The notes beneath the pieces were generated by a model. The model made no database searches. It was not told the DNA's origin and saw nothing but the letters and a program-made list of their open reading frames with translations. From contig JAPOTD010000061.1 in assembly GCA_026709365.1 (NCBI GenBank), positions 1-39,285 on the forward strand: DNA of 39,285 nucleotides. Direction: 5' to 3'. Both the position numbers and the translations under genes were made by a program. The DNA comes from Gammaproteobacteria bacterium (lineage in GTDB: Bacteria; Pseudomonadota; Gammaproteobacteria; Pseudomonadales; Azotimanducaceae). Positions 2 to 24,939 of this stretch are shown here, one piece after another (position 1 is the stretch's first letter; every line of letters begins with the position of its first letter).

Positions 2-436
2 ATCGCCATGCCCGCGGCGCGCAAGGGGTTCCAGATCTATGACTTCACTTGGAACCACACCACCCAGTGGGCGATGAAGTCGGACCCCAAGCTCACCTAC
101 CTGCAGGAGAACTTCGATCCGGACCGGGTGGCGACGCAGTTGCGCGAACGCAGGCAACGGTTCGGCGACCAAGTGCAGTCGCACATTGAGTTCATCTACG
201 ACCCTGACGCGGGCGTCGTCCGTCCCGGCGGCCTGAGCATCGTGAAGTTCCGCGGCAAGCGGGACCTGTGGCGGCTGATCGACTACTGCGAGGCGCACGG
301 CATCCAAATCGCCAACCCGCACACCCACTATCTGGACGATGACACGCGCTGGTACGGCGACAACTTTCTCGCCGCCAAGGACCGCTGGGACCCAAACCAC
401 TTGCTGAACCCCGGGCACCTGCGGGCGCTGGAATAG
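2..436 (+). CDS. FAD-linked oxidase, C-terminal part (partial)
   Basis: The reading frame is open from the left edge, so only the C-terminal ~145 residues are present and the ATG at 8 is probably internal. The sequence looks like the C-terminal domain of VAO/PCMH-type flavin oxidoreductases. It ends with the family's typical motif DPNHLLNPG, which lies near the flavin in such enzymes, and carries a WNHTTQWAM segment and a conserved Pro-His region (IANPHTHY). These enzymes oxidise alcohols, amines or hydroxylated heterocycles; the substrate cannot be read from this fragment. The stop lies 10 bp before the GTG of the next amidohydrolase, so it is probably the upstream member of the same operon. 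The family call is fairly safe; the substrate is unknown. Confidence 0.7.
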   Translation: MAMPAARKGFQIYDFTWNHTTQWAMKSDPKLTYLQENFDPDRVATQLRERRQRFGDQVQSHIEFIYDPDAGVVRPGGLSIVKFRGKRDLWRLIDYCEAHGIQIANPHTHYLDDDTRWYGDNFLAAKDRWDPNHLLNPGHLRALE

Positions 437-446
437 GCCAAGCCCG

Positions 447-1688
447 GTGGACGTGGAGGTGCTGATCACCGGGGCCCGAGCGCCGACCGGCAAGGAGCCG
501 CTATCGCTCGGCATCGTCGGTGAGCGCATCGCCCATCTGGGCGACGGCGAAGGGGTGCGTGCCGGCCGGGTCATCGATGCACAAGGCTGCCTGCTGCTGC
601 CCGGCTTGGTTGAGCCCCATGCCCATCTTGACAAAACCTACAGCGTCGCCGCCCTGCCGGCGGGCCCGGCGTCCGCGCAGGGGGCGCTGCGGGAGGCGAT
701 CGCCGCGATGGGGCAGCACAAGGCGGAACGCAGCATCGACGAGATGCTCGAACGCGCCGACGCCGCCTTGAAGCGGGCGACCGCCTGCGGCGTCAGCACC
801 CTGCGCAGCCACGTCGATGTCGGCGCGCCCGCCGACCTCGACAACCTAAGGGCCTTGCTGGACCTGGGGCGGGCGCATCGGCACCGCATCGCGCTGCGGT
901 TGACCGTGCTCAGCGATCCGGGCAGCCGCGACGGCTTCGCCCTGTCGCGCGAGGCGCTGGCGCTGGGCGCGGACGCCATCGGCGGCGCACCGGCCTTGAC
1001 GGCCGACCCCCAGCGGAGCATCAGCGCCAGCTTTGACCTGGCCGAGGCGAGCGGCTGCGCGATCGACCTGCACATCGACGAGAACGAGGATCCGCGCAGC
1101 CCCTGCCTCGAGCAGCTGGCCGACGAGGCGCGCCGACGCCGCTGGCAGGGCGACCTGTGCGCCAGCCATTGCTGCGCCCTGGGCTTCGCGCGCAAGTCGG
1201 ATCGCGACCGCATCATCGGCAAAGTGGCCGAGGCCGGCATCGACATCGTGGCCCTGCCCGCCTGCAACCTCTTCCTGATGGGCAGGGGCCAGGAACCCGT
1301 CCCCCGGGGCATAGCGCCGGTCAACGCCCTGCAGGAGGCCGGCGTCAACGTCTGCGTGGGCACGGACAACGTGCAGGATCCGTTTCACGCCTTGGGCGAC
1401 TACGATCCGCTCGCCAACGCGGCCCTGCTGTTCAACGCCGCCCACTTCGGTGGCCGGGACGTTGGGCGGGCACTGCGCTTGGCCACCGACAACGCCGCCC
1501 AAGCGCTCGACCTGGGCGACGGCTACGGCCTCCAGGCAGGGGCCCTGGCCAACTTCAGCCTGTACCGCTGCGACGGCCCGCTCGCCGCCCTGACCGAGCG
1601 CCCGCTGCGGTCCTGGGTGTTCTTTCGCGGACGGCCGATCCTGCGGCAGAGCCTTGCGCAACACTGGCTGGTCGGCGATGGGCGCTAG
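447..1688 (+). CDS. Cytosine-deaminase-like metal-dependent amidohydrolase (CodA/AtzC clade)
   Basis: A 413-residue amidohydrolase-superfamily enzyme, cytosolic, expected to deaminate an N-heterocycle hydrolytically. Metal and catalytic positions are visible: PHAHLD (H58, H60), LHIDENED (H209, E212), ASHCC (H241) and GTDNVQDPF (D307). The HIDEN-type motif and the VGTDNVQDP loop resemble cytosine deaminase CodA. The same branch includes AtzC, which turns N-alkylammelide into cyanuric acid, and creatinine deaminases, so cytosine is not assured as substrate. The start is GTG. The 3' end overlaps the next gene by 11 bp. Its neighbours (a biuret/triuret-type hydrolase and AtzG/AtzE) suggest a substrate feeding a ureide pathway; that is inference. 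Confidence 0.8.
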   Translation: MDVEVLITGARAPTGKEPLSLGIVGERIAHLGDGEGVRAGRVIDAQGCLLLPGLVEPHAHLDKTYSVAALPAGPASAQGALREAIAAMGQHKAERSIDEMLERADAALKRATACGVSTLRSHVDVGAPADLDNLRALLDLGRAHRHRIALRLTVLSDPGSRDGFALSREALALGADAIGGAPALTADPQRSISASFDLAEASGCAIDLHIDENEDPRSPCLEQLADEARRRRWQGDLCASHCCALGFARKSDRDRIIGKVAEAGIDIVALPACNLFLMGRGQEPVPRGIAPVNALQEAGVNVCVGTDNVQDPFHALGDYDPLANAALLFNAAHFGGRDVGRALRLATDNAAQALDLGDGYGLQAGALANFSLYRCDGPLAALTERPLRSWVFFRGRPILRQSLAQHWLVGDGR

Positions 1689-2373
1689 CCTGACGGTCGC
1701 CGCGCTGCCGCGCCCGCAGCGCTTGGCGCTCGACGAGACGGCGCTGCTGCTGATCGACATGCAGCGGGACTTCCTGGAGCCGGGCGGCTTCGGCGCGGCG
1801 CTCGGCAACGACGTCTCCCAGCTGCGGGCCTGCGTGGCGCCCTGCGCCAAGCTGCTGGCGGAGGCCCGGCGCTTGGGACTGCTGGTGGTTCACACCCGCG
1901 AGGGCCATCGCCCCGACCTGACCGATCTGCACCCCGAAAAGCTGGCCCGCTGCCCGGCGGGGGGCGCCATTGGCGAGCGCGGCCCCATGGGCCGCATCCT
2001 AGTGCGCGGCGAGCCGGGCCACGGCATCATTCCGGAACTGCGCCCCATCACCGGCGAGGTGGTGATCGACAAGCCCGGCAAGGGCGCCTTCCACGCCACC
2101 GACCTGGACTTGGTGCTGCGCCGCGCCGGGACGCGCTGCCTGATCGCCTGCGGCGTGACCACGGAGGTCTGCGTTCACAGCACCGTTCGCGAGGCCAATG
2201 ACCGGGGCTTTCGGGTGTTGGTGCCGAGCGACTGCTGCGCCTCCTACTTCCCCACGTTCCACCAGGCGGGCCTTGAGATGATTGCCGCCCAAGGGGGCAT
2301 CTTCGGCTTCGTCACCGACTCCGCCAGCCTGCTGGCCGGCACGGCGGACATCCCGGCACGAGGCGTTCAATGA
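1678..2373 (+). CDS. Isochorismatase-like cysteine hydrolase, biuret/triuret hydrolase type
   Basis: About 231 residues if translation starts at the ATG at 1678; an upstream TTG at 1654 in frame is less likely. The isochorismatase-like triad is present: D27 (LLIDMQRDF), K132 (IDKPGKGAF) and nucleophile C165 (TTEVCVHS). Segments HTREGHRPDLTDL, GRILVRGEPGHGI and CVHSTVREANDRGF closely resemble biuret amidohydrolase (BiuH) and the related triuret hydrolase (TrtA). Those enzymes cleave biuret to allophanate, or triuret to carboxybiuret, with release of ammonia. The gene overlaps the preceding one by 11 bp and the following permease by 4 bp. The adjacent AtzG/AtzE pair, which in known systems acts on 1-carboxybiuret, supports a ureide substrate. 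The choice between biuret, triuret or another ureide cannot be made here. Confidence 0.82.
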   Translation: MGASLTVAALPRPQRLALDETALLLIDMQRDFLEPGGFGAALGNDVSQLRACVAPCAKLLAEARRLGLLVVHTREGHRPDLTDLHPEKLARCPAGGAIGERGPMGRILVRGEPGHGIIPELRPITGEVVIDKPGKGAFHATDLDLVLRRAGTRCLIACGVTTEVCVHSTVREANDRGFRVLVPSDCCASYFPTFHQAGLEMIAAQGGIFGFVTDSASLLAGTADIPARGVQ

Positions 2374-3947
2374 CGACGTTCAGGCCTCGCTTCTGGTCGT
2401 CGGGCGACTGGAACGCGCTGTTCGGCTTCGGCACCAACGTGCTGGTCAACCTGCTGGTGCTGACCGGCCTGCTGCGCTACGCCTTGCAGATGCCGGACGA
2501 GCTGGTGTTCGGCCGCATTCTGCCGGCGGCCGGGCTGATGCTGGCGCTCAGCACCGGCTACTACGCCTGGCTGGCTTGGCGGCTCTCCGCCCGGGAGCGG
2601 CGCCACGACGTGTGCGCGCTGCCCTCCGGCGTCGGGGTCGCGCACATGTTCATCGTGACGTTCGTCATCATGCTGCCCATCCAAGCCGCCACCGGCGATG
2701 CGGTGGCCGCTTGGGAGGCGGGCCTTGCCTGGGTCTTCATCCAAAGCGTCATCCTGATGCTGGGCGGCTACATCGCCCCGGTGATTCGGCGCATCACGCC
2801 TCGGGCGGCCCTGCTGGGCACGCTGGCCGGCGTGTCGGTGACCTTCATCTCCATGCGGCCGGCGCTGGAAATCTTCATGCAGCCGGGCATCGGCCTGATC
2901 TGCCTGTTCGTGATCCTGCTCGGCTGGCTGGGCAAGGTGCGCTGGCCTTGGGGGCTGCCGGCCGGGCTGGTTGCGGTCGCAATCGGCGCCGCCATTGCCT
3001 GGACATCGACCCTGCTGGGCTTCGAGCTCGGCGGGCTGACCCTGGCCGGCGTTGCCGACAGCTTCCGGAACTTCGGGTTCAACCTGCCGCTGCCGGCGAT
3101 CGGCCACACCTTCTCCGGCTTTCAGTTCCTGGGCGTGCTGCTGGTGACCGCCATTCCGTTCGGCATCTACGACCTCGTGGAGGCGATGGACAACGTCGAA
3201 AGCGCCCAAGCCGCCGGAGACCGGTACCCCACCCAACGGGTGGTGTTCGCCGACGGCGCGGTCAGCATGATCGGCTGCTTGGCCGGCAACCCGTTCATCA
3301 ACGCGGTTTACATCGGCCATCCGGGCTGGAAGTCGATGGGCGGCGGCATTGGCTATTCCGCCGTGACCGGCATCGCCGTGCTGCTGCTGGCTTGGTTCGG
3401 CCTGCTGCCCCTGCTGCTGGCCTTGGTGCCGGTGGTGGCCATCCTGCCGATCCTGCTGTACATCGGCATGCAGATCGGCGCCCAGGCGTTTCAGGAGTCT
3501 CCCGCCCGGCATGCGCCAGCCATTGTCCTGGCGATGGTGCCGCACTTCGCCGCCTGGGCGCGCAACCTGGTCGATGGCGCGCTCTCGGTGGCGGGCGCCG
3601 ATGCGCAGGCCCTGGACGCCGCCGAACTGGCCGCGGCCGGCGTGCTGTACGAGGGCCTGGAGGCGCTGGGCGGCGGCGCCATCCTCAGCGGCCTGCTGCT
3701 CGGCGCGATGGCGACGCTCATCATCGAGCGCCGCTTCAGGGGTGCGGCCGCATTTGCGGCGGCGGGCAGTGCGCTATCCTACTTCGGCTTCATGCATGGC
3801 GAAGCGGTCGGCTGGGCGGTATCGCCCGCCATTGCCGCTTCGTACGCAGCACTCGCCCTGATGCTGGTGGCGCTGCGGCCGGTCGATGGCCGTGCGCGGA
3901 CGCCTAGGGAACCTGCCAAGGAGACGACCCATGGCTCACCAGCCTGA
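2370..3947 (+). CDS. NCS2-like nucleobase/heterocycle permease
   Basis: A 525-residue polytopic inner-membrane protein with roughly 12-14 hydrophobic segments, resembling the xanthine/uracil permease (NCS2, SLC23) fold. The region EAMDNVESAQAAGDRYP followed by GNPFINAVYIGHPG matches the conserved central helix/re-entrant region of that superfamily, though it is a divergent branch and the exact substrate cannot be assigned. It overlaps the upstream hydrolase by ATGA, and the next gene begins before its stop. Proton-coupled uptake of the ring compound or ureide broken down by the flanking enzymes is the likely role. The C-terminus ends in a short hydrophilic tail encoded across the ribosome-binding site of the next gene. 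Confidence 0.75.
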   Translation: MTTFRPRFWSSGDWNALFGFGTNVLVNLLVLTGLLRYALQMPDELVFGRILPAAGLMLALSTGYYAWLAWRLSARERRHDVCALPSGVGVAHMFIVTFVIMLPIQAATGDAVAAWEAGLAWVFIQSVILMLGGYIAPVIRRITPRAALLGTLAGVSVTFISMRPALEIFMQPGIGLICLFVILLGWLGKVRWPWGLPAGLVAVAIGAAIAWTSTLLGFELGGLTLAGVADSFRNFGFNLPLPAIGHTFSGFQFLGVLLVTAIPFGIYDLVEAMDNVESAQAAGDRYPTQRVVFADGAVSMIGCLAGNPFINAVYIGHPGWKSMGGGIGYSAVTGIAVLLLAWFGLLPLLLALVPVVAILPILLYIGMQIGAQAFQESPARHAPAIVLAMVPHFAAWARNLVDGALSVAGADAQALDAAELAAAGVLYEGLEALGGGAILSGLLLGAMATLIIERRFRGAAAFAAAGSALSYFGFMHGEAVGWAVSPAIAASYAALALMLVALRPVDGRARTPREPAKETTHGSPA

Positions 3948-4188
3948 CGGGAAGGAGTTCAGGCCGGCGGACCTGATCGCCGAGCAGCCCGAGCTCATCA
4001 ACACGCTGGCGGCGCTGGCCGGCGTGCGGATTCCCGAGGCCAGCGCCGAGGCGGTGCGCGGCCACCTCCTGACCGCCGCCCGCATGGCGCAACTTCTCTA
4101 CGCCACGCCGCTGCCCGACCACGTCCTCGACTTCGCTGCGGTGTTCACGCCCGCCGACAGGCTCACGGAGGGCCAAAACGGTGACTGA
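3931..4188 (+). CDS. atzG: AtzG-like small subunit (DUF4089)
   Basis: An 85-residue helical protein of the DUF4089/AtzG family. AtzG is the small accessory subunit that forms a heteromer with the amidase AtzE, much as GatC supports GatA, and is required for stable 1-carboxybiuret hydrolase. The related HpxX accompanies an AtzE-like amidase in the Klebsiella oxalurate pathway. The start at 3931 is set by an AAGGAG at 3918-3923. The gene begins inside the end of the permease gene and overlaps the amidase start by 8 bp, so the two subunits are translationally coupled. The family call rests on length, the pattern around RGHLLTAARMAQLL and the adjacent amidase. Confidence 0.8.
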   Translation: MAHQPDGKEFRPADLIAEQPELINTLAALAGVRIPEASAEAVRGHLLTAARMAQLLYATPLPDHVLDFAAVFTPADRLTEGQNGD

Positions 4189-5584
4189 GCCGTTCGCCAC
4201 AGCGACCGACATTGCCCAAGCCGTATGCTCGGGGGAGTCTAGGGCACACGACCAAGTGGCGATGGCGCTGCGCCAAATCCGCGCGGCCAACCCCAAGCTG
4301 AACTGCTTCACCGCCGTTTTGGCGGCGCGAGCGCGGGCGCGCGCCGAGGCGCTGGATGCCCGCATCGCGGCCGGCGAGCCCGGCGGCGCGCTGGCCGGCG
4401 TCCCCTTCGCGGTCAAGAACCTGTTCGACATCGAGGGCCTGGCCACGCTGGCGGGCAGCAAGATCAACGCCGAACGGGCGCCGGCGAGTCGCGATGCCCT
4501 GCTGATTCGCCGTCTGGAAAGTGCCGGCGCCATCCTCGTCGGCGCCTTGGGGATGGGCGAGTACGCCTACGACTTCACTGGCGAGAACCAACATTACGGC
4601 CCCTGCCGGAATCCTTGGGATGCCGGGCGGATGACCGGCGGCTCCTCGTCGGGCAGCGGCGGCGCCACCGCTGCCGGGCTGGTCCCCTTCGCCTTGGGCT
4701 CCGACACCAACGGCTCGATCCGGGTGCCGGCCTCGCTGTGCGGCCTGTTCGGGCTGAAGCCCACCTACGGACGCCTGCCGAGAACCGGCACCTACCCGTT
4801 CTGCGACAGCTTGGACCATCTCGGCCCCTTGGCGCGCAGCAGCCGTGACCTGGCCCGCGTGTACGACGTGCTGCAGGGCTTCGATGACGGCGACCACGCC
4901 TGCGCCAACCGGCCCACCGAGCCGGTTGAGCCGCTGCTCGACAAGGGGATCGACGGACTGCGATTCGCCGTCGCCAACGGCTACTTCAACTGCGACGCCT
5001 TTCCGGAGGCGGCCGCTGCCGTCGCCGCCGTGGCCGATGCGCTCGGCGCCCGACAGTCCCTGGTCCTTGACGGCGCCGCCCAGGGGCGCGCAGCGGCCTA
5101 CCTGATCACCAATGGCGAAGGCGCCGCGCTGCACCGCCAACGGCTGCTGTCGCGGCCCGAGGACTTCGACATCGACACCCGGGACCGCTTTCTGGCGGGC
5201 TGCCTGCTTCCCGCCGCCTGGCTGCTGCGCGCCCAAGCCGTGCGGCGTTGGTGGCAAGCCAAAATGCTGGAGGCATTCGCCACGGTTGACGTCATCGCAG
5301 CACCCTGCACGCCTTGCTCCGCGCCCCTGCTGGGGGCCAAAACGCTGCGCATTGACGGCGAGGACCAGCCTCTGCGGCCCAACTTGGGATTGTTCACCCA
5401 ACCCTTCTCGGCGATTGGCCTGCCGGTTTGCAGCGTGCCGCTCAGATCGGCCGCAACCGGCTTGCCCATCGGCGTGCAACTGGTTGCGCCGCCTTGGCGG
5501 GAAGATCTGTGCTTAAGGGCGGCAGCCGCCCTTGAGGCGCTCGGCGTCGTCGATTGCGGGCAACCCCCGTTGGCGACAGCCTGA
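4181..5584 (+). CDS. atzE: AtzE-family amidase (1-carboxybiuret or oxalurate hydrolase catalytic subunit)
   Basis: A 467-residue amidase-signature enzyme, cytosolic. The Ser-cisSer-Lys triad is visible: K79 (FAVKNLFD), the serine-rich loop GGSSSGSG at 153-160, and nucleophile S179 (SDTNGSIRVP). Pairing with an AtzG-like subunit is diagnostic of the AtzE/HpxY group. AtzE hydrolyses 1-carboxybiuret in cyanuric acid breakdown, and the hpxXYZ genes of Klebsiella are needed for oxalurate use. The start is GTG at 4181, inside atzG. The gene ends a co-directional run and converges on the creatininase-family gene, with 23 bp between the stops. The family is clear; the substrate is inferred from neighbours. 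Confidence 0.85.
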   Translation: MTEPFATATDIAQAVCSGESRAHDQVAMALRQIRAANPKLNCFTAVLAARARARAEALDARIAAGEPGGALAGVPFAVKNLFDIEGLATLAGSKINAERAPASRDALLIRRLESAGAILVGALGMGEYAYDFTGENQHYGPCRNPWDAGRMTGGSSSGSGGATAAGLVPFALGSDTNGSIRVPASLCGLFGLKPTYGRLPRTGTYPFCDSLDHLGPLARSSRDLARVYDVLQGFDDGDHACANRPTEPVEPLLDKGIDGLRFAVANGYFNCDAFPEAAAAVAAVADALGARQSLVLDGAAQGRAAAYLITNGEGAALHRQRLLSRPEDFDIDTRDRFLAGCLLPAAWLLRAQAVRRWWQAKMLEAFATVDVIAAPCTPCSAPLLGAKTLRIDGEDQPLRPNLGLFTQPFSAIGLPVCSVPLRSAATGLPIGVQLVAPPWREDLCLRAAAALEALGVVDCGQPPLATA

Positions 5585-5607: not shown

Positions 5608-6414
5608 TCACTGCGGCTGCCAGTCGCTGCGGTCGCGCAGGCGGCTCAGCGGGTAGGCTGCGACCTCCTCAATGAGCGTCGCCAAGCCCTGCATGTAGTG
5701 GTTGCAGTACAGGGCACCGAGTTCAGCCGTGGCGTCGGCGGCGTTGCCGGAGCAGCCTTCGGGATGCAGGTCGTTGGACAGCCAACCCATGTAGGTGCTG
5801 CCCAGCACCCGAAGCTGGCGGTTCTCGGCCTCGACCTCGGCCAGCAGCCCCTTGAAGTTGCGCGCCTTGTCCATCTTCACCAGGTCAGGGCGCAGATGCA
5901 GCATCATGGAGGTCTCCACCTGCCCGGCGTGAATGCCGTGCCGCACCTCATCGGCCGGCACGTCGCTGGCCGGGGCGCCGAAGCTCCAGCCGCTGCAGCC
6001 CACGGCCAGCATCCTGCGCTTGACCCGCAGCTCCCGGCAGCAGATCTCCATCACCTGCGGCTGGCCGCCGTGGGCATTGAAGAACATCAGCTTGTACACG
6101 CCGGCTCGGGCCACGCTCTCGCCAATCTCCATCCAGCTGCTCAACAGCGTCTGCGCACTATGGGTCAACGTGCCCTCGAACTGCACATGCTCAGTGGACT
6201 TGCCGATGTCCTGGGTCGGCAGCAGCAGCAGCGGCACCTCCTCGGCCACCAAGCGCGCCGCGCCCAGGCAAATGGACTCCGCAATGGTCGCATCGGTGCT
6301 GACCGGCAGGTGCGGCCCGTGCTGCTCGATCGCGCCGAGCGGCAGCAGCGCCACGGTGCGCTCCGGGTCGAGTTCCGTGAATTCATCCGTGCTCAGATCC
6401 TGCCAGTGGCGCAT
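5608..6414 (-). CDS. Creatininase-family amidohydrolase
   Basis: A 268-residue protein with the metal-binding signatures of the creatininase family: GAIEQHGPHLPVSTDA near the N-terminus, FNAHGGQ in the middle and HAGQVETSMM further on, supplying the Glu/His/Asp ligands of the binuclear site. Characterised members include creatinine amidohydrolase, a formylpyrimidine deformylase in riboflavin synthesis (ArfB) and MftE. Given the surroundings, a cyclic or N-acyl amide from heterocycle breakdown is a plausible substrate, but this is inference. It is alone on the minus strand, divergent from the RidA-family gene. A sigma-54-like sequence on the same strand lies about 240 bp upstream, inside ridA. 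Confidence 0.82.
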   Translation of the reverse strand: MRHWQDLSTDEFTELDPERTVALLPLGAIEQHGPHLPVSTDATIAESICLGAARLVAEEVPLLLLPTQDIGKSTEHVQFEGTLTHSAQTLLSSWMEIGESVARAGVYKLMFFNAHGGQPQVMEICCRELRVKRRMLAVGCSGWSFGAPASDVPADEVRHGIHAGQVETSMMLHLRPDLVKMDKARNFKGLLAEVEAENRQLRVLGSTYMGWLSNDLHPEGCSGNAADATAELGALYCNHYMQGLATLIEEVAAYPLSRLRDRSDWQPQ

Positions 6415-6541: not shown

Positions 6542-6931
6542 ATGCCCGCCCTAGCCAACCCAGCGAACATCCACCCGCCTTTCGGCAACTACGCCCACGG
6601 GTTTGAAGTGCCGGCCGGGGCGCGGTTCGTGCTGACTTCCGGCCAGTTGGGAATTGGCAAAAACCGTGCCATACCGAACGGCGCGGAGGCGCAGGCGGAA
6701 CTGTGCTTTGACGCCATCGAGGCGATTCTCAAGGAAGCGGGCATGGACTTGGCTGACGTCGTTCACCTGCGCGCCTACGTCACCGAGCGCGCCGCCTTTG
6801 CGAGCTACATGGCAGTGCGCGACCGGCGCCTCGGCGGCCGGCGGGTCGCCTCGACGTTGCTGGTGGTCGGCGGCTTCACGCGGGAGGAGTTTCTGGTCGA
6901 GGTTGAGGCCACGGCAGCTCGCCGGACCTGA
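6542..6931 (+). CDS. RidA/YjgF-family protein
   Basis: A 129-residue Rid-superfamily protein, spanning the usual full length with the typical middle FDAIEAILKEAGMDLADVVHLRAYV and the ending VEVEATAA. Canonical RidA hydrolyses reactive enamine/imine intermediates, and Rid paralogues are common in pyrimidine and amino-nitrogen catabolic loci. The strand expected to carry the catalytic Arg of RidA reads VASTLLVV here, so that Arg seems replaced; this fits a non-canonical Rid subfamily rather than a general deaminase. The ATG at 6542 is preceded by a weak GAGG. It is divergent from the creatininase gene (127 bp between starts) and followed by the sigma-54-controlled receptor. Confidence 0.8.
   Translation: MPALANPANIHPPFGNYAHGFEVPAGARFVLTSGQLGIGKNRAIPNGAEAQAELCFDAIEAILKEAGMDLADVVHLRAYVTERAAFASYMAVRDRRLGGRRVASTLLVVGGFTREEFLVEVEATAARRT
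6657..6671 (-). promoter_or_regulatory. Sigma-54-like promoter match inside ridA, facing the creatininase gene
   Basis: On the minus strand the sequence reads TGGCACGGTTTTTGC. It matches the sigma-54 consensus -24 (TGGCACG) and -12 (TTGC) elements at the correct spacing. Transcription would start near 6645 and reach the creatininase-family gene (start 6414) after an untranslated leader of about 230 nt. It lies within the coding sequence of ridA, so chance is a real possibility, but a second perfect match of the same kind sits 460 bp away. Confidence 0.4.
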
Positions 6932-7246
6932 GGAGCGTGCCCGCTAACAGTGCAGCGCTGCACCTGCAAGGGGCGCATCCCGTGATTTCCGTGCGATCGG
7001 ACCGGTGCGGCGAGGGCAGGGCTTGCCGCGCGCTCCGATCCGTTGCAAAACAATCGTTTGTCAGCACTTCGCAAAGCCGGCTCGGCGGCGGCATCCCAAA
7101 GCGGGCCGTCCGGTCAGCATTTTTGGCACAACGATTGCATTCGTTGCCAAGGATATGCCCGCGTGGCCAAGCAGATCGAGGCCGGAACGGGCAAAAGCCA
7201 TGCAACAGCATTCCGTCGCTTAAGACGCAACATGAGAGCAACCCCC
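6932..7246 (+). promoter_or_regulatory. Leader/control region of the TonB-dependent receptor
   Basis: This 315-bp gene-free stretch holds a perfect 14-bp palindrome, GTGCAGCGCTGCAC, at 6950-6963, a sigma-54 promoter at 7124-7138, and a hairpin formed by TTGG-CA-CAACGA with TCGTTGCCAA at 7123-7150, which overlaps the promoter. The palindrome is about 170 bp upstream of the promoter, a distance compatible with an enhancer-binding activator site. No credible protein-coding frame is seen here. Confidence 0.5.
7124..7138 (+). promoter_or_regulatory. Sigma-54 (RpoN) promoter upstream of TonB-dependent receptor
   Basis: TGGCACAACGATTGC matches the sigma-54 consensus at every highly conserved base: GG at -24 and GC at -12, ten bases apart, with TTGC in the -12 box. 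The predicted start is near 7150, giving a leader of 80-100 nt to the receptor gene. Sigma-54 promoters need an activator such as NtrC and often drive nitrogen-scavenging genes, which fits the surrounding ureide and purine genes. Confidence 0.8.
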
Positions 7247-9790
7247 ATGAAAAACAAGCAAAAACCGATGAGGCGATCTGCGGCAGCGCTGCTGGCTTGC
7301 GCCCTGGCCGCCCAAGCAGCGACGGCAGCCGCTCAGGAGTCCGCCGCCGAGGAGGAGTCCGCCGAGGGCGTGGTTGAATTGGAAACCTTCGTCGCTGAGG
7401 AGGAGGTGGAGGATGAGTTCGGCATCCTGCAGACGGACCCGGTCGACTCCGTGTTCGGCTTCGGCAAGACCGTGCTGGAGACGCCGCGCTCGGTGTCCTC
7501 CATCAGCGCGGAATTCCTGGAGCAGTTCAACGCCACCGGCATCAACGACATCGTCAACTTCGTGCCGGGCACCTTCACCACCTCGTTCTTCGGCGTGGCC
7601 GGCTCGCTGGACATCCGCGGCACCTCGGCGGAAAACTACTTTCGCGGGGTCAAGCGCCTGAACAACGAGGGCAACTACCCCACGCCCATCGGCGCCACCG
7701 ACCGGGTGGACGTGGTGCGCGGCCCGATGTCGCCCATCTCCGGGCCGAGCAAGGTGGGCGGCGCGCTGAACTTCATTCCCAAGTCCGCACGCGCCGCCAC
7801 GGGCCAGTACCTCGATGCGCCCTCCGCGCAGATGAGCTACATGACCGGCAGCTGGAGCCGGAGCGTCCTGACCGCAGAGGTCGGCGGCCCGGCGGACATT
7901 GCCGACCGCAGCGCCGGCTACTACCTGTACGGCGAGCTGAGCGACTCCGGCAGCTACTACAACAACGACTTCAACAAGCAGACGCTGCTGCAAGGCTCGT
8001 TCAACATCGACTTGAGCGAGCGCACCCGAGTGGAGTTCGGCGGCATGTTCCAAAACTGGGAAGGCCACGAAAACGGCGGCTGGAACCGGGTGACCCAAGA
8101 CCTCATCGACCACGGCACCTACATCACCGGACGCCCCAGCGCCAACATCGACGGGGCTTTCGGCGACGGCGACGGCCTGATCGAAGAGGCCGAGATCGAT
8201 GCCTGGGAAGCGACCTTGGCCGGCTTGGTCTCCACCGGCGATCCGTTCACGCCGGGCACCGTGAGCTGCTTCACCGGCTTGGTGCCCTTCTGCTTCGAGG
8301 GCAACTTCGAGCCGCTGGACGGCGCCAACATCACCCAGGCGCTGGTGGACCAGCTCGGCCTTGGCCTTGACCCGGCCAGCTTGGGCACGGCGAAGCTCAA
8401 GCGCAGCCAAGTGCTGATCACCGACACCGACCAGTACGACACCGAGGCCATCACCTTCTACTTCGACATCATCCACAACTTCGACAACGGCTGGACGCTG
8501 ACCAACAAGCTGTTCTTCGACTCCCAGGACTACGTCAACGTCGATGCCTACGGCTTCCACAAGATCGCCGACGCCTGGGTGGTGGAGGACCAGTTGATCC
8601 TCGCCAAGGAATTCGAGTCCAACGCCCTAAGCGGCGCCTTTCAGGTGTCGCCCTCGGTGCGCTTCACCGATGCGTTCTACGCCCTCGACTTCACCGACGA
8701 GATCTTCGACCGGGTGGACCTGACCCAAGGCTTCAACGCCCTCTCCGCCCAGCAGTCGGCAAACCGCGCGCCAAAGGGCCAGGAAGCCTACAGCGACTAT
8801 TGGAATTCCGAGTACATGCAGCTCGGCCTCGCCGTCCTTGCCGACCTGAAGATCGGCGAGAAACTGAGCCTGCTGGTGGGCGCGCGCTACGACTACGTTG
8901 ACGCCGAGGGCGAGAACGGCGACGGCGACGGCCCCATCCGCCTGACCACCTTCGACGCCAACGGGGAGCACAAGGCCACCAACAGCGACGACGGCTTCAC
9001 CTACACGGTGAGCGCTTCCTACAGCCTGCCCGGCGGGGTGTCGCCCTACGTCACCATTGCCGAGCAGAAGACCATCGTCTCCGGCTCGGCCGGCGACCTC
9101 GACACCGAGAACATCTTCAACAAGACCTTCCTCGGCAAGTCGGAGCTGACCGAGGCGGGCGTCAAGGCCAGCCTGCTGGAGGGGCGGCTGTTCGCCGCCA
9201 TCGCCTACTACGAGCAGGAGCGCATCGCCTTTGACGCGCAAAGCCCGGTGAGCAACCAGGCGGTGCTGTCCGAGGGCGTGGAGATCGAGCTGCGCTATGC
9301 GCCCATCGACCGGCTAGCGGTAGTGGGCACCTACTCCGACCAGAAGACCGAGGTGCTGACTCCCGGCGGCGTCACGTTCAGCTACTTGGGCGCAGCGAAC
9401 ATGCCCCAGGTCGATCCGGCCACGCTGTTCAGCGGCATGATCGGCGGCAACCAAGTGGTCGGCGAAAAGACCCTGCGCGGCGGCATCCCCGAGGTGACCG
9501 CCAGCGTCTCCGCCAGCTACCGGTTCACCGAGGCGACCACGGCGTCGCTGAGCCTGACCTACGTCGATGAGGTGGCGTCCTCGGTGCTCGGCGGCATCGT
9601 GCTGCCGGACTACACGCTGGTGAACGCCTCGCTGGTCTATGACAACGACAAGTTCAAGATCGGCCTGTACGCCAACAACATCACCGACGAGACCTACTTC
9701 CGGGGCAACTTCCCCAGCCTGTACGGCAACAACGCCGTGCTGCCGGAGCTGCCGCGCAACTGGGCCGCCGAGGTCGCTTACAAATTCTAG
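7247..9790 (+). CDS. TonB-dependent outer-membrane receptor
   Basis: About 847 residues from the ATG at 7247; another in-frame ATG at 7232 adds five residues, and still longer versions are unlikely because they would precede the signal peptide. The N-terminus (MKNKQKPMRRSAAALLACAL) is a Sec signal peptide ending near AAAQE. An acidic linker with a possible TonB-box region follows. Then comes a plug domain with RSVSSISAEFL, LDIRGTS and DRVDVVRGPMSPI, and a long barrel ending in an aromatic residue (AAEVAYKF). Such proteins carry scarce, large or metal-bound solutes across the outer membrane using TonB energy. The ABC importer genes begin 41 bp downstream, suggesting one uptake route; the ligand may be the nitrogen compound processed by this region, though iron chelates cannot be excluded. 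Confidence 0.88.
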   Translation: MKNKQKPMRRSAAALLACALAAQAATAAAQESAAEEESAEGVVELETFVAEEEVEDEFGILQTDPVDSVFGFGKTVLETPRSVSSISAEFLEQFNATGINDIVNFVPGTFTTSFFGVAGSLDIRGTSAENYFRGVKRLNNEGNYPTPIGATDRVDVVRGPMSPISGPSKVGGALNFIPKSARAATGQYLDAPSAQMSYMTGSWSRSVLTAEVGGPADIADRSAGYYLYGELSDSGSYYNNDFNKQTLLQGSFNIDLSERTRVEFGGMFQNWEGHENGGWNRVTQDLIDHGTYITGRPSANIDGAFGDGDGLIEEAEIDAWEATLAGLVSTGDPFTPGTVSCFTGLVPFCFEGNFEPLDGANITQALVDQLGLGLDPASLGTAKLKRSQVLITDTDQYDTEAITFYFDIIHNFDNGWTLTNKLFFDSQDYVNVDAYGFHKIADAWVVEDQLILAKEFESNALSGAFQVSPSVRFTDAFYALDFTDEIFDRVDLTQGFNALSAQQSANRAPKGQEAYSDYWNSEYMQLGLAVLADLKIGEKLSLLVGARYDYVDAEGENGDGDGPIRLTTFDANGEHKATNSDDGFTYTVSASYSLPGGVSPYVTIAEQKTIVSGSAGDLDTENIFNKTFLGKSELTEAGVKASLLEGRLFAAIAYYEQERIAFDAQSPVSNQAVLSEGVEIELRYAPIDRLAVVGTYSDQKTEVLTPGGVTFSYLGAANMPQVDPATLFSGMIGGNQVVGEKTLRGGIPEVTASVSASYRFTEATTASLSLTYVDEVASSVLGGIVLPDYTLVNASLVYDNDKFKIGLYANNITDETYFRGNFPSLYGNNAVLPELPRNWAAEVAYKF

Positions 9791-9831: not shown

Positions 9832-10680
9832 GTGGGACGCCCTGGCCTGCCCGAGCGCCCCACGCGGGCTGACGCCGGGGCTTCGCCAACGGCCGTCGCG
9901 CCCCTTGACCGGGGCCAGCCTGCGCTGATTGAACTGGCCGGCGTCGGGAAAACCTTCGACGGCCGGACCAAGGTGCTGGACGGCATCGACCTGGCGCTGC
10001 CCCGCGGCGAGCTTCTGGCGCTCATTGGCCCGAGCGGCTGCGGCAAGTCAACCCTGCTGAAGCTGATTGCCGGGCTGGTTCGCCAATCCGCCGGGCGCAT
10101 CGTCGTGGGCGGCGGCGCGCCTGCCGAGGCCGAAGGCAAGCTGGGCTTCGTCTTTCAGGACGCCAACCTGCTGCCTTGGTTGAACGCCTTGGACAACGTG
10201 GCGCTGCCGCTGAAGCTGATGGGCGCGCCGAAGGCGAAGCGTCGGCAAACCGCCCGGGAGATGTTGGACATGGTGGGCCTGTCACGAGTTCCCGACCACT
10301 ACCCGCGCGAGCTTTCCGGCGGCATGCGCATGCGGGTGTCCATCGCCCGGGCGCTGGCCACCGGCCCGGAAATCCTGCTGCTCGACGAACCCTTCGGCGC
10401 GCTCGATGAGATGACCCGGAACAGCCTCAACGAGGAGCTGCTGCGGCTGCGGGAGCAGCAGCGCTGGACCGCCGTGTTCGTGACCCACTCGGTGTCGGAG
10501 GCGGTGTTCCTGTCGTCGCGGATTGCGGTGCTCGCCGCCAATCCCGGGCGCGTCCATACGACCAAGCGCATCGACCTGCCCTTCCCGCGCACCGCCCGCA
10601 CCCGGGAACTGCCGGACTTCCACGCGCTGGTGGCGGAGGTGACCCGATCGCTGCACAATGTGCCCGGCCAAACCGCATGA
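9832..10680 (+). CDS. ABC transporter ATP-binding protein (nitrate/taurine/pyrimidine-precursor type)
   Basis: A 282-residue ATPase with Walker A GPSGCGKST (66-74), Q-loop FVFQDANLLPW (Q108), signature LSGGMRMR (160-167), Walker B LLLDEP (181-186) and the H-loop VTHSVSEAV. The Q-loop and D-loop patterns are those of the SsuB/TauB/NrtD/ThiZ family, which serve importers of small anions or heterocycles. The start is GTG at 9832, leaving a ~30-residue N-terminal extension before the conserved domain. It follows the TonB receptor by 41 bp and overlaps or closely adjoins the permease gene, so all four transport genes may be one transcript. Confidence 0.9.
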   Translation: MGRPGLPERPTRADAGASPTAVAPLDRGQPALIELAGVGKTFDGRTKVLDGIDLALPRGELLALIGPSGCGKSTLLKLIAGLVRQSAGRIVVGGGAPAEAEGKLGFVFQDANLLPWLNALDNVALPLKLMGAPKAKRRQTAREMLDMVGLSRVPDHYPRELSGGMRMRVSIARALATGPEILLLDEPFGALDEMTRNSLNEELLRLREQQRWTAVFVTHSVSEAVFLSSRIAVLAANPGRVHTTKRIDLPFPRTARTRELPDFHALVAEVTRSLHNVPGQTA

Positions 10681-10687
10681 GGGCGCC

Positions 10688-11494
10688 TTGAACAAGCCGG
10701 CTGCCAAGTCCCTGCCCTGGCGGGCCCTTGCCTGGCCGTCCGCCTTCGGCATTGCCATGCTGGCGCTTTGGTACGCTGCGGTCCTGTGGGGCGGCCTGCC
10801 CGAATACCAGCTGCCGGCACCCCACCGAGTCGTCGCGGAGGGGCTGAACGAAGCGCCAACGCTTTGGTCGGGGCTGCTGCAGACGCTGTACGCCTGTGTC
10901 CTGGGCTTCACGGCATCGGTGGCGGGCGGCCTGCTGCTGTCCATCCTGCTGGCTTCGAGCAACTGGGCCTACCAAGGCATCTACCCCTACGTGCTGATGC
11001 TGAAAATGATGCCGATCATCGTGCTGGCGCCGATCATCATCATCTGGTTCGGCCAAGGCATCGCCAGCATCACGGTGATCACCTTCCTGATTTGCTTCTT
11101 CCCGATTGTGGCCAACACGACCATGGGCCTGCGCTCCATTGACCGGGACCTCGCGGCGCTGTTTCAGGTCTATGCCGCCACGCCTGCGCAAAGCCTGCTG
11201 CACCTGCGCATCCCGGCGGCGCTGCCGTACTTCTTCACCGGCCTCAAGGTCGCCGCCGCCCTGACGCCGATCGGCGCGCTCTACGGCGACACCGTCGCCG
11301 GCATGGGTTCAGGCAGCCAAGCGGGCTTGGGGTTCGTGGTGGTCATCTTCAGCTCCCAACTCAAGGTGCCGGCGCTGTATGCGGCGGCCTTCACCGCCTG
11401 CGCCATCGGCTTTTTGTTCGTCGGCCTGGTCAATCTGCTGAGCTGGTGGGCGCTGCGCCGCTGGCATGAGTCCTATCTCGGGGAGGAGGCCTGA
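10688..11494 (+). CDS. ABC transporter permease (SsuC/TauC/ThiX-like)
   Basis: A 268-residue inner-membrane permease with about six transmembrane helices. It carries the coupling-loop region LFQVYAATPAQSLLHLRIPAALPYFFTGLK, which contains the EAA-like motif of this importer family. I chose the TTG at 10688, preceded by GAGGG; a GTG at 10658 in the same frame, overlapping the ATPase gene by 23 bp, is the alternative. The end overlaps the substrate-binding lipoprotein gene as TGATG. It works with the adjacent ATPase and binding protein. Confidence 0.88.
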   Translation: MNKPAAKSLPWRALAWPSAFGIAMLALWYAAVLWGGLPEYQLPAPHRVVAEGLNEAPTLWSGLLQTLYACVLGFTASVAGGLLLSILLASSNWAYQGIYPYVLMLKMMPIIVLAPIIIIWFGQGIASITVITFLICFFPIVANTTMGLRSIDRDLAALFQVYAATPAQSLLHLRIPAALPYFFTGLKVAAALTPIGALYGDTVAGMGSGSQAGLGFVVVIFSSQLKVPALYAAAFTACAIGFLFVGLVNLLSWWALRRWHESYLGEEA

Positions 11495-12516
11495 TGCGCC
11501 GACGGCTGTTCGGCCTGGCGCTGCTGGCCGGGCTGGCCGCAGGCTGCGGCAGCGGCCCGGCGACCGAGCCCGCGGCCGGGCCGGCGGCCAACGGCCCCGC
11601 CAAGGCGGTGCTGCAGACCGACTGGTACGCCCAGCCGGAGCACGGCGGCTTCTACCAAGCGCTCGCCAAGGGCTTCTACGCCGAGGAGGGCCTCGACGTC
11701 GAGATTCGCCCCGGCGCCAACATGAACGCCATCCCGCAGATGGTGGCGCTGGGGCGGGTGGACTTTGCCCTGGGCGCCATGGACAGCCTCGTGATCCAGA
11801 GGGCCAGGGGCATTCCCTTGGTGAGCCTGTTTCCCTATTTTCAGCACGATCCGCAATGCGTCCTCTTCCATCCGCAATCGGGCATCAAGCGTTTGGAGGA
11901 CCTCGACGGCCGGGAGGTCATGTTCCAACCCGGCATGATCTACACCGACTTCCTGCAGCGCGCCATGGGGCTGGACCTCAAGCTGCTGCCGATGGACTGG
12001 AGCCTGGCGCGCTTCACCAACGATGAGTCCTTCGTCCAGCAGTGCTTTCTCACCAGCGAGCCGGTCGTGCTGCGTCGGCAGGGCTTTGACCCTGGCGTCA
12101 TCCCAATGTCGGAGTCGGGATTCGATCCCTACCGCCACGTTTACGCCAACGATGAGCTGGTGGCGACCCAGCCGGAGATGGTGGCCGGTTTCATCCGCGC
12201 CTCCATTCGCGGCTGGCGGGACTTCATGAACGGGGACCCGACCCCGGCGTTCGGCCTGATCATGCAAAACAACCCGCAGCAGTCCGTGGCGCTCATGGAG
12301 GACACGCTCGCGCAAATGAAGCGGCACAGCCTGACGGAGGGCGACGTCGAGGCCGGGGAGGCGCTGGGGCAGGTCAACCTGATGCGGGTTCGCAGACTGG
12401 TCCAGCAACTGGATGACATCGGCCTGTTGGACCGTCCGGTGACCGCCCAGGAGATCATTGCGCTGTCCGTGCTGCCCGCATCGCTGGTGGTCGGCGCCAG
12501 CCACGGGCCCGGCTAG
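11494..12516 (+). CDS. Substrate-binding lipoprotein, NMT1/THI5-like
   Basis: A 340-residue periplasmic binding protein. A lipoprotein signal peptide (RRRLFGLALLAGLAAGC, lipid-attached C18) is followed by a low-complexity Ala/Gly/Pro tether. The mature domain starts with DWYAQPEHGGFYQALAKGFY, the hallmark of the NMT1/THI5-like family that includes ThiY and other binders of pyrimidine or aromatic heterocycles. Later segments (MVALGRVDFALGAMDSL, ELVATQPEMVAGFIRAS) also fit. The gene overlaps the permease stop (TGATG) and shares one base with the next gene (TAGTG). The ligand is inferred to be an N-heterocycle because the next gene is an amino-heterocycle deaminase. Confidence 0.88.
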   Translation: MRRRLFGLALLAGLAAGCGSGPATEPAAGPAANGPAKAVLQTDWYAQPEHGGFYQALAKGFYAEEGLDVEIRPGANMNAIPQMVALGRVDFALGAMDSLVIQRARGIPLVSLFPYFQHDPQCVLFHPQSGIKRLEDLDGREVMFQPGMIYTDFLQRAMGLDLKLLPMDWSLARFTNDESFVQQCFLTSEPVVLRRQGFDPGVIPMSESGFDPYRHVYANDELVATQPEMVAGFIRASIRGWRDFMNGDPTPAFGLIMQNNPQQSVALMEDTLAQMKRHSLTEGDVEAGEALGQVNLMRVRRLVQQLDDIGLLDRPVTAQEIIALSVLPASLVVGASHGPG

Positions 12517-13883
12517 TGTCCGGCCAGGCGTCCGCAACGCTGATCCGCGGCGCCCACGTCTGGCAGCATGGCCCCGCCGACCTGCGGGTGGCTGGCAACC
12601 GGATCGCCGAAATCGGTCCCCGGCTGGACGCGACGCCGGGCGCCGAGGTCGTGGAGGCGCAGGGCCAACTGCTTTATCCCGGACTGGTCAATGCCCACCA
12701 CCACGTCGCCCAGTCGTTGAGCAAGGGCCTGCCCGGCGGCATCGACCTGCCGTTGGGCGAGTGGCTGGCGGCGGTGCCCTACCGAATCTGGCCGTTGCTG
12801 ACGCCCGACAGCCTGTACGTCGCGGCCCGCATTGGCTTTGCCGAGCTGCTGCGGGCGGGCTGCACCACCTGCGCCGACCACCACTACCTGTATCACGCCG
12901 ACAGTTCGCCGGAGTTGGAGGATGCCGTCTTCCAAGCCGCGGACGAAGTCGGCATTCGCCTGGTGCTTTGCCGGGGCGGACACACGGTCGCCGGCTCCCA
13001 CCGGGGCTTCGCCCATGCCGGGCTGGCGCCGGAATCCCTGGACCAGTGCCTGCGCGGGCTGCAGGACACCGCCGACCGCCGACACGATCCGGCTGCCGAC
13101 GCCATGAGCCGGGTTGCGGTGGCACCCACTTCGCTGGTGCATACCCACAGCGCCGACCACTTGCGCCAACTGGCGGCTTTCGCCGCCGAGCGCGGGCTGC
13201 GGCGGCACAGCCACCTGCTGGAGGTGCAGCACGACGACGAAGCGGCCCAGGCGGCCCACGGCCTGCGGGCGCTGGACTATGCGGATTCAGTGGGTTGGTT
13301 GGGCGAGGACGTCTGGTATGCGCACTTGGTGCATCTGACTGAGCCGGACGTTGATCGGTTGGCGAAGAGCGGCACCGGCATCGCGCATTGCCCCACGTCA
13401 AACTGCCGATTGGGATCCGGCGTGGCACCCGTGCAGGCGATGGCGGCCGCCGAAATGCCCATCTCCCTCGGCGTGGATGGCTCGGCCTCCGCGGAGTCGG
13501 GAAGCCTGGTGGCCGAGATGAACTTGAGCTGGCTGCTGCACCGCGCACTGGCCGGACCCGAGGCCACCAAGGCGGAAACGGTGGCGCACTGGGCCACCCG
13601 CGGCGGCGCCAAGATGCTCGGCTTCGACGAATTGGGGCAGTTGGAGCCTGGCATGCTGGCGGACTTGGCGCTCTATGACCTCGACCAGCCACGTTTTCAT
13701 GGCTTGTGGCAGCCGGAACTGGCCCCGGTGCTGTGCGGCGAGCCGCTGGCCGCCACCGGCGTGATGGTCAACGGACGGTGGCGTCTGCGTGACGGGGACA
13801 TCCTCGGGCTGAACCGAGACGACCTGCGCCGCGACGCGGAGCGCGAGCTGGCCCGGCTTCAGGGCCTGGCCGCGCAACACTAG
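12516..13883 (+). CDS. 8-oxoguanine-deaminase-like amidohydrolase (TRZ/ATZ group)
   Basis: A 455-residue amidohydrolase. Metal ligands and catalytic residues are visible: VNAHHHVAQSL (H61/H63), a central HSHLLEV, WYAHLVHL and the GVDGSASAESG loop, whose Asp is the catalytic metal ligand. The NAHHH-Q and GVDGSAS combination is typical of the 8-oxoguanine deaminase/isoxanthopterin deaminase cluster, relatives of AtzB and TrzA. An 8-oxoguanine deaminase would give uric acid and ammonia. The start is GTG, sharing one base with the stop of the binding-protein gene, so it is coupled to the importer. The purine permease follows. The family is firm; the precise substrate among aminated purines or pterins is not. 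Confidence 0.8.
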   Translation: MSGQASATLIRGAHVWQHGPADLRVAGNRIAEIGPRLDATPGAEVVEAQGQLLYPGLVNAHHHVAQSLSKGLPGGIDLPLGEWLAAVPYRIWPLLTPDSLYVAARIGFAELLRAGCTTCADHHYLYHADSSPELEDAVFQAADEVGIRLVLCRGGHTVAGSHRGFAHAGLAPESLDQCLRGLQDTADRRHDPAADAMSRVAVAPTSLVHTHSADHLRQLAAFAAERGLRRHSHLLEVQHDDEAAQAAHGLRALDYADSVGWLGEDVWYAHLVHLTEPDVDRLAKSGTGIAHCPTSNCRLGSGVAPVQAMAAAEMPISLGVDGSASAESGSLVAEMNLSWLLHRALAGPEATKAETVAHWATRGGAKMLGFDELGQLEPGMLADLALYDLDQPRFHGLWQPELAPVLCGEPLAATGVMVNGRWRLRDGDILGLNRDDLRRDAERELARLQGLAAQH

Positions 13884-13935
13884 CTTGAGCCCCAGCTTGC
13901 GAACCCCCAACGAACAGGCCAAAGTCCAAAGCCCC

Positions 13936-17848: not shown

Positions 17849-18225
17849 TGCCCGTCACTTGCTCTCGCCCAGAAACCACTGCCTGGCACCTTAGCAGGCT
17901 GCGCAGGCTCAGGCATAGTGTGCGGGAGACCGCCCTTGTCCCATTCGGACTCAGCGGGAACGGGGCACTCGATGATGTTGTTCAGGCAACCTTGAAAATT
18001 GAAAGCGTTGCGTCCAATTTTCACAACCACAACGAAACGCGCACTGTGCGGGCTCAGAAACATTTCGGAATCCGACCTGCGCGACGAGGCGCACCCGCTT
18101 GACGGGAGTTTCGCGCCAGCGAAACCACAACGAGCCGAAGGTTCGCCGCGACCTTCAGACCGCACCACTGCGTTAGTTGGAAAATTGGACGCATCGCGTC
18201 CAGATTTCATGGTATTGTGACGGCC
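17849..18225. other. Gene-free interval with inverted repeats
   Basis: About 375 bp between divergent genes without a credible coding frame. It contains a 9-bp stem TGAAAATTG/CAATTTTCA (17993-18001 with 18015-18023) and a perfect 14-bp inverted pair TGCGTCCAATTTTC at 18009-18022 and GAAAATTGGACGCA at 18180-18193. A short hairpin TGGACGC-ATC-GCGTCCA lies at 18186-18202. An extended -10-like TGGTATTGT at 18209-18217 directly precedes the ATPase start, suggesting a nearly leaderless transcript. Confidence 0.6.
18009..18193. repeat. 185-bp segment bounded by 14-bp perfect inverted repeats (MITE-like or operator)
   Basis: The ends TGCGTCCAATTTTC and GAAAATTGGACGCA are exact reverse complements, 157 bp apart. 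The interior has no open reading frame of note and carries CCACAACGA twice. The size and terminal repeats are those of a miniature transposable element, but no clear target-site duplication is seen, so a regulatory function is equally possible. Confidence 0.45.
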
Positions 18226-24671: not shown

Positions 24672-24939
24672 GGGAGCCTCGATCCCAAGGAGTCGGGCGC
24701 AGACGTGCAGGGAACCGGCGGTGTCCCAATGGGACAGATAGCGCGGGAACCAACGGCGCTTCGCACCGCCGTCCGAGGGCGGAAACTCGCTCCGTGGGCC
24801 GTCGCCCGAACCCGGCGGATTCCCGGAGCGAGGGCGTCCCGCCCTCGATTGGGCGCATGGAAGGCTCTTTCCGACAGCAGCATTGGACTTTGCTTCATGG
24901 CAGAGGTTCCCACTTCCGCTCCCCGGCTGAAGGCTTTTT
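24672..24939 (-). other. Repeat-rich spacer between the two peptide-transporter ATPase genes
   Basis: The spacer holds a perfect 8-bp stem CGAGGGCG-TCC-CGCCCTCG at 24829-24847 and most of a 42-bp duplication shared with the 3' end of the upstream gene. An in-frame run continuous with the downstream ATPase reads through it, but its translation is low-complexity and has no family match that I can see. It is best taken as intergenic repeat DNA inserted in an operon. Confidence 0.55.

Follow-up and report, generated by a model that had tools for sequence, protein, structure and literature searches.

Triuret, a small molecule rich in nitrogen, has a chain containing four nitrogen atoms. The triuret operons described for Herbaspirillum sp. 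BH-1 and Rhizobium leguminosarum contain TrtA, BiuH and the allophanate hydrolase AtzF, with the decarboxylase TrtB co-occurring in some genomes; the available portion of that account names AtzEG only within the cyanurate route (PMC7948467). For nitrifiers, the accessible part of PMC12625717 places TrtA with BiuH, TrtB and AtzF. Two further systems use related parts: the cyanurate operon atzDGEHF of Pseudomonas sp. ADP (PMC6219798, in excerpt) and the oxalurate genes of Klebsiella (hpxX, an AtzE-family gene and hpxZ). The subject here is an operon at positions 447-5584 of contig C74 (JAPOTD010000061.1) of a Gammaproteobacteria bacterium of the family Azotimanducaceae (assembly GCA_026709365.1). 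The window, the whole stretch of DNA that was analysed, is C74:1-39285 (39,285 nucleotides); the host genome amounts to 3.70 Mb in 144 contigs and is 95.7% complete. The reading considered likely is that the core of the operon (1678-5584) is a triuret-utilisation module, set in an island that scavenges nitrogen from purine-like rings, with a flavin adenine dinucleotide (FAD) oxidase and a CodA-like amidohydrolase probably acting upstream.

The locus shares with the Herbaspirillum and Rhizobium triuret pathway, as excerpted from PMC7948467, the diagnostic TrtA residues and an allophanate hydrolase as end step, and differs in having AtzEG in the place of BiuH, AtzF on another contig, and additional permease, FAD oxidase and CodA-like genes. 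With atzDGEHF it has in common the AtzG-AtzE and AtzF steps from 1-carboxybiuret on; unlike in that operon, TrtA in place of AtzD would make the 1-carboxybiuret, and AtzH was not found in the own genome. AtzG/AtzE homologues are also shared with the Klebsiella oxalurate genes, but the window AtzE lies on another branch, HpxZ was not found and the gamma-glutamyltransferase-like gene is on another contig.

Gene layout of the operon

Five genes are coupled by overlaps, and the FAD oxidase gene ends 10 bases upstream of the first of them. An earlier note, made from the letters of the stretch alone, had described this series, and every member of it is confirmed. The note was also right that a front end lacking an assigned substrate is coupled to ureide hydrolases. 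G089 in the list below is a distant member of the family, with a guanine-plus-cytosine (GC) content of 46% against 67%.

2..436, plus strand: VAO-type (FAD_binding_4) oxidase, C-terminal 144 amino acids (aa), the remainder beyond the contig edge; 63% identity over 142 aa to the full 457-aa G089 protein
447..1688, plus strand: CodA/AtzC-like amidohydrolase; Pfam Amidohydro_3, PDB 4r7w 175 bits, AtzC 6nbo 110 bits
1678..2373, plus strand: predicted TrtA-type triuret hydrolase (cysteine hydrolase); 57% to TrtA 6xix, 50% to BiuH 6azo, diagnostic residues, tree
2370..3947, plus strand: permease of SLC23/UraA-type fold without a Pfam family; structural model and fold matches
3931..4188, plus strand: AtzG-like small subunit; PF13318 30.2 bits, cut-off 24
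4181..5584, plus strand: AtzE-family amidase, best read as a 1-carboxybiuret hydrolase; NF006631 673.6 bits, PDB 6c62 467 bits, tree

The cysteine hydrolase

The nearest solved chain to the cysteine hydrolase is 6xix, the TrtA of Herbaspirillum sp. BH-1; the residues that distinguish TrtA from BiuH were taken from the available text of PMC7948467 and mapped by alignment. The catalytic residues D24, K129 and C162 and the binding residues F29, E72, K132 and Q202 are all kept in the window protein (7/7), and the discriminating residues F35, N41, A134, E160, Y187 and I205 are all of TrtA type (6/6), where BiuH 6azo has Y, Y, S, D, T and V. An alignment of 103 rows, which counts the window twice and includes G089 and two PDB sequences, holds 81 rows with the full TrtA set, 18 with the BiuH set and 4 that are partial or odd. 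For the tree, 79 TrtA-class rows were thinned to every second one and the 4 odd or partial rows were left out; among the resulting 60 rows a single 100/100 branch separates 42 of TrtA class, including the window and G089, from the 18 of BiuH class. The earlier note had left the choice between BiuH and TrtA open. Its TrtA half stands, and phylogenetic placement puts the enzyme on the TrtA side of the split. BiuH is rejected: the NCBIfam equivalog scores 262 bits against a cut-off of 370, and residues and tree both point the other way. By its sequence, the hydrolase is TrtA-type, not BiuH-type.

The window and G089 proteins sit on long branches in this tree and, according to the accessible part of PMC7948467, specificity in the family depends on second-shell residues, so that action on another ureide instead of triuret may be considered; with every discriminating residue tested being of TrtA type, it is very improbable. 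No second TrtA/BiuH-type gene was found in the own genome at E<=1e-30. With a single such gene, carboxybiuret would end as biuret were it not for AtzEG.

TrtA-type genes also occur in other settings. The Escherichia coli plasmid NZ_CP019909.1 (L175:6977-14187) carries a TrtA-type hydrolase with 13/13 tested residues and 63% identity to the window protein, followed by DUF2877, FdrA, DUF1116, carbamate kinase and cytosine permease genes; Escherichia accounts for 77 of the 253 plasmid records matching TrtA at 1e-60. At L047:7971-14241 and L073:7998-13163, TrtA is followed by AllH-AllF-AllG-like genes (named by eye from sequence starts); the former locus has the permease with TrtA and the latter also a carbamate kinase-like gene (by eye).

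Recurrence of the TrtA-permease-AtzG-AtzE order

The neighbourhoods of TrtA were read at the best 80 of at least 569 confirmed loci, chosen by how closely they match the window protein. The TrtA-permease-AtzG-AtzE arrangement is found again in Rhizobiales (L026), Oceanicella (L078) and Paroceanicella (L136). In L026 these four genes stand together with HpxZ/AtzH (196 bits) and AtzF (778 bits), and Terrarubrum (L141) has a cysteine hydrolase with TrtA residues, the permease (annotated 'regulator'), AtzF, an AtzG-type gene, AtzE and HpxZ. Genes of L103, a locus richer in adenine and thymine, were read from plain open reading frame lists. Contrary to what the earlier note had supposed, the ureide parts are thus not joined in a new way; elsewhere the same set comes with AtzF and AtzH. 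A TrtA-AtzEG arrangement was not found described in the main-text portions of the two triuret papers (PMC7948467, PMC12625717; supplements lie outside them). The core is therefore best described as a predicted module that takes triuret to allophanate by known chemistry, arranged in a way that was not found described.

The permease lies directly downstream of TrtA on the same strand in 62/80 loci. It has no Pfam match even at E 10, and PF00860 (NCS2/SLC23) is not matched; three of its relatives scanned against Pfam gave one chance-level match. A model built from 35 sequences (34 of the 58 listed relatives were used in the alignment; pLDDT, the predicted local distance difference test score, 86.6) matches the SLC23/SLC26/SLC4 fold and is, as a predicted structure, of UraA type. 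Profile comparison with the NCS2 profile gave a probability of 8 and an E of 0.004, and comparison with PDB sequences a single chance match (E 0.8). Of the earlier label 'NCS2-like', the fold holds and the Pfam family does not. The position directly 3' of TrtA in most of these loci thus belongs to a transporter family in which the three members scanned lack a Pfam match above chance level, and this linkage suggests a small ureide as its substrate.

The rest of the pathway in the own genome

The earlier note saw no allophanate hydrolase, which is correct for the window but not for the genome: contig C12 carries an AtzF with 45% identity to AtzF of strain ADP over 596 aa and a C-terminal AH_C domain. 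This 15.6-kb contig also bears xanthine dehydrogenase (XDH), XdhC, urate oxidase (PuuD), HIUase and OHCU decarboxylase genes, together with a 2-oxoglutarate (2OG)-Fe(II) oxygenase, HupE/UreJ, an adenine deaminase-type gene and another amidohydrolase. Of the other genes that the note proposed to look for, AtzH was not found (see below) and AtzD/barbiturase (PF09663) gave no match in the own genome, with a search control that was silent too; a complete cyanurate operon elsewhere in the genome was not found, under the same silent AtzD control. Urease, considered as a last step, gave weak matches only. Four own-genome proteins match PF00449 at 23.4-30.4 bits (Pfam cut-off 23), each over 40-66 of 121 positions; three of them are read as other amidohydrolases because their best family is Amidohydro_3 (105-149 bits), and the fourth is on C137.

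Contig C18 carries a standard Hpx-like allantoin route: PuuE at 516.7 bits (cut-off 424.6), an allantoate amidohydrolase truncated where the contig stops (534 bits, cut-off 479), an aminotransferase 62% identical to that of the Klebsiella hpx locus, with NCBIfam scores under the cut-off, a gamma-glutamyltransferase-like gene (282 bits, cut-off 358; 43% and 59% pieces in the Klebsiella locus) and a xanthine-type permease. The whole resembles the genes of the Klebsiella hpx locus. Searches of G000 and G089 for AllB found none (best 42 bits, cut-off 358), and allantoicase gave no match, again with a silent search control. C12, C18 and C74 are alike in composition (GC 0.67-0.68, tetranucleotide r of 0.99 or more); the same holds for other parts of the genome, so the likeness shows one genome, not one island.

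AtzG-AtzE: carboxybiuret or oxalurate

The window AtzE scores above the cut-off of its family and has its AtzG partner upstream. In a tree of 28 AtzE rows it groups (94/93) with those of Oceanicella L078 and Paroceanicella L136, and in the 10-row set around it (96/93) 7 of the 9 other rows are labelled TrtA-linked; AtzE of strain ADP lies elsewhere. The TrtA-linked label is loose (tblastn >100 bits, so that BiuH-type genes count), and 11/28 rows originate from the TrtA scan, which makes the sampling partly circular. For the three best plasmid matches found by AtzE alone, the sequence read likewise includes a TrtA-type or BiuH-type gene (14 of the 38 plasmid records with AtzE were examined).

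Several findings weigh against a triuret role for this pair. AtzE was present in the stretch read at 11/80 TrtA loci, themselves picked by likeness to the window protein, and in G089 the AtzE, 51% identical to that of the window, lies ~23 kb from TrtA. AtzH/HpxZ (PF11533) was not found in the 95.7% complete own genome, in a search whose control matched 1/14 (Caulobacter). Basal in the 10-row set of the window is an AtzE of Acidithiobacillus caldus that has xanthine dehydrogenase, ureidoglycolate lyase, HpxZ and gamma-glutamyltransferase as neighbours. No further AtzE is present among the own-genome PF01425 places, and with the Hpx-like allantoin route on C18 this sole AtzE may serve oxalurate. 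AtzG-AtzE would then be HpxX-HpxY, hydrolysing oxalurate from a route for which C18 supplies PuuE, allantoate amidohydrolase, aminotransferase and the gamma-glutamyltransferase-like gene, and merely co-transcribed with TrtA. Against this stand the missing HpxZ, the gene order, which is that of TrtA operons, and the tree, where HpxY of Klebsiella and Serratia fall elsewhere; the oxalurate role is judged unlikely, and hydrolysis of 1-carboxybiuret remains the preferred function.

The front end: FAD oxidase and CodA-like amidohydrolase

The full 457-aa FAD oxidase of G089 has the FAD_binding_4 domain and matches PDB 6v42 at 285 bits. With this protein as query, the own assembly yielded no counterpart of the N-terminal part that the window lacks, only weak paralogues (29-32%); no literature was found on 6V42, on 6V43 with FAD, or on the FAD oxidase cluster. 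Across the phylum, 20/398 sampled genomes match (E<=1e-80, 36-39% identity), and a CodA-like gene adjoins the oxidase in 17 of them. One of the remaining three has creatininase-like and isochorismatase-type genes, the latter 34% identical to TrtA, and two have ABC genes; RidA is present in 3/20 of these loci of ~4.2 kb each. Further neighbours in four annotated 19-kb stretches are RidA, ABC, NAD(P)H oxidoreductase and creatininase genes, with a 2OG oxygenase as well in one of these stretches. The FAD oxidase and its CodA-like neighbour are a conserved pair of their own.

Clusters in Rhizobium, Paroceanicella and Pseudooceanicola share with the window genes for the FAD oxidase, a CodA-like protein (there a 'cytosine deaminase', PRK07583), a creatininase-like protein, RidA and ABC components; the oxidase of the Rhizobium stretch is unannotated and matches in two pieces. 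They differ in lacking TrtA within ~9 kb and in the branch of the CodA-like protein. In Paroceanicella one plasmid carries both the FAD oxidase cluster and a TrtA set, separated by ~270 kb.

The CodA-like proteins of the window and G089 are about 33-35% identical to each other and about 26-32% to the FAD-oxidase-linked ones compared, a divergence that counts against simple homology of function. In the tree both have long branches and group on the CodA/AtzC side, outside the main FAD-oxidase-linked clade; the window protein scores 194 bits with the PRK07583 model (cut-off 403), and its position outside the clade is that of a long branch. A search of plasmids for CodA-like genes at 1e-40 gave no match. 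The positions taken to be CodA's metal ligands (H61, H63, H214, D313) and catalytic residues (E217, H246) are kept; the presumed substrate-side residues Q156, D314 and W319 are D, N and F. With these three differing, cytosine deaminase is rejected. Pterin deaminase, an idea owed to a Variovorax enzyme with 'endoribonuclease' genes downstream (PMC9513972, seen in part), is weakened by the position of the window protein outside the FAD-oxidase-linked clade.

Recurrence of the island in a distant relative

TrtA/BiuH-type genes are rare in the family: they occur in 5/206 of its genomes at E<=1e-30 and in 8/145 genomes of the relatives set, the own genome included in both counts. G089 is among the carriers. 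In G089 the FAD oxidase, CodA-like, TrtA and permease genes follow one another as in the window, and one contig bears counterparts of the FAD oxidase (63%), CodA-like protein (about 33-35%), TrtA (61%), permease (66%), creatininase (69%), RidA (46%), TonB receptor (57%) and ABC genes (46-63%). The following window genes belong to this comparison:

5608..6414, minus strand: creatininase-family protein; PF02633 225.6 bits, 69% to G089, 40-45% to those of four FAD oxidase clusters
6542..6931, plus strand: RidA-family protein; PF01042, 46% to G089, 52-60% to RidA of three FAD oxidase clusters and 30% to that of the fourth (L173)
7145..9790, plus strand: TonB-dependent receptor, start uncertain; TIGR01783 124 bits, under the cut-off of 223.5, 57% to G089
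9832..10680, plus strand: ABC transporter ATPase; PF00005, 52% to G089
10658..11494, plus strand: ABC transporter permease, named by position and its G089 match (63%)
11494..12516, plus strand: THI5/NMT1-type substrate-binding protein; PF09084 125 bits, 46-48% to G089
12516..13883, plus strand: 8-oxoguanine/isoxanthopterin-type deaminase; NF009059 550 bits (cut-off 543), PDB 2paj 327 bits (best; presumably linked to isoxanthopterin deaminase), 7ww2 273 bits, 8-oxoguanine deaminase model 416 bits, under its cut-off of 532; 56% to G089

The same G089 contig holds the 8-oxoguanine-type deaminase (56%), AtzE (51%) with an AtzG-like gene before it, AtzF (41%), the C12-type 2OG oxygenase (49%), amidohydrolase (73%) and adenine deaminase (72%), and C18-type DUF2165, deaminase, second 2OG oxygenase and ExbB/ExbD genes (55-76%). 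Genes of three own contigs, C74, C12 and C18, thus sit on one contig of G089. PuuE was not found in G089, and XDH, XdhC, PuuD, UraD and HIUase had no match on its 87-kb contig. The island was absent from the stretches read from other relatives.

Two 2OG-Fe(II) oxygenase-like genes of the own genome (L116:9095-9994 and L133:1019-2047, the second named by eye and match) stand beside purine genes and have G089 counterparts (49%, 56%), one of which lies there between AtzF and AtzG-AtzE. An ExbB/ExbD/TPR energy-transduction operon is near purine/ureide genes in both genomes (L133:5533-10468, L118:8683-13659; names by eye, identities 53-76%), which fits TonB-dependent uptake.

Proposed pathway and the source of triuret

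Gene content, residues, trees and synteny suggest the following flow. The SLC23-type-fold permease would take up a small ureide; TrtA would convert triuret to 1-carboxybiuret, and AtzEG would convert this to 1,3-dicarboxyurea, which would lose CO2 to give allophanate, spontaneously here unless an unseen enzyme helps. AtzF, encoded on C12, would release ammonia and CO2 from allophanate. Each hydrolysis has been published for homologues (PMC7948467, PMC6219798, both in excerpt). The FAD oxidase and the CodA-like amidohydrolase would probably act before this module. The triuret itself may be taken up from outside by the permease, or it may be made within the cell by the front end, with purines or pterins as starting material.

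The earlier note had read the order oxidase, deaminase, ureide hydrolases as one pathway for a ring compound. A single new linear pathway of this kind, in which the FAD oxidase and the CodA-like enzyme convert a ring compound into the TrtA substrate, draws support from the tight packing and overlaps of the window genes, from the same front end standing before TrtA in the same four-gene order in G089, and from the CodA-like neighbour in 17/20 genomes. Against it, the oxidase/CodA-like pair is conserved independently, with one TrtA-like gene (34%) near the FAD oxidase across the 20 phylum loci (~4.2 kb) and four 19-kb clusters; the window and G089 CodA-like proteins are divergent and lie, on long branches, outside the main linked clade; and a full allantoin route is also present in the own genome. 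The linear pathway as a whole is doubtful, and a likely triuret module, with a separately conserved front end that probably acts before it, is preferred.

The appeal of forming triuret from purines lies in the N-C-N-C-N-C-N chain that urate and triuret have in common: with C5 and C6 removed, the urate atoms N1-C2-N3-C4-N9-C8-N7 make up the skeleton of triuret. The standard allantoin route in the own genome counts against a simple purine-to-triuret story. A literature search pairing allantoate with triuret led to PMC12625717, seen in part; conversion of allantoate to triuret is weakened: AllB was not found and allantoicase gave no match under a silent control, but PuuE and the Hpx-like route are present in the own genome. 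That the FAD oxidase and the CodA-like protein, with 2OG oxygenases, RidA and the creatininase-like protein, form triuret from a purine- or pteridine-derived ring is decidedly unlikely, if chemically appealing.

Other genes in the window

13885..15234, plus strand: nucleobase permease; PF00860 175 bits
15712..17034, plus strand: guanine deaminase; NF006679 652 bits, cut-off 351

Further downstream, two AAA_14/DUF4143 ATPase genes (18217-19374 and 21559-22782) flank NUDIX and malate dehydrogenase genes. On the minus strand, 23706-25986 holds two ABC transporter ATPase genes of oligopeptide type, which apparently have no relation to the operon.

Implications

AtzEG is indicated as an alternative to BiuH after TrtA. 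In the window TrtA stands tightly behind an oxidase gene and an amidohydrolase gene, within a purine-type scavenging island that recurs in G089. The G089 front end before TrtA, with AtzE, AtzF, 2OG oxygenases and purine deaminases on the contig, may provide candidate enzymes for biological triuret formation, and the recurrence of the island in so distant a relative makes that idea testable with a handful of proteins. If true, triuret would have an enzymatic origin, and purines a route that bypasses glyoxylate and urea.

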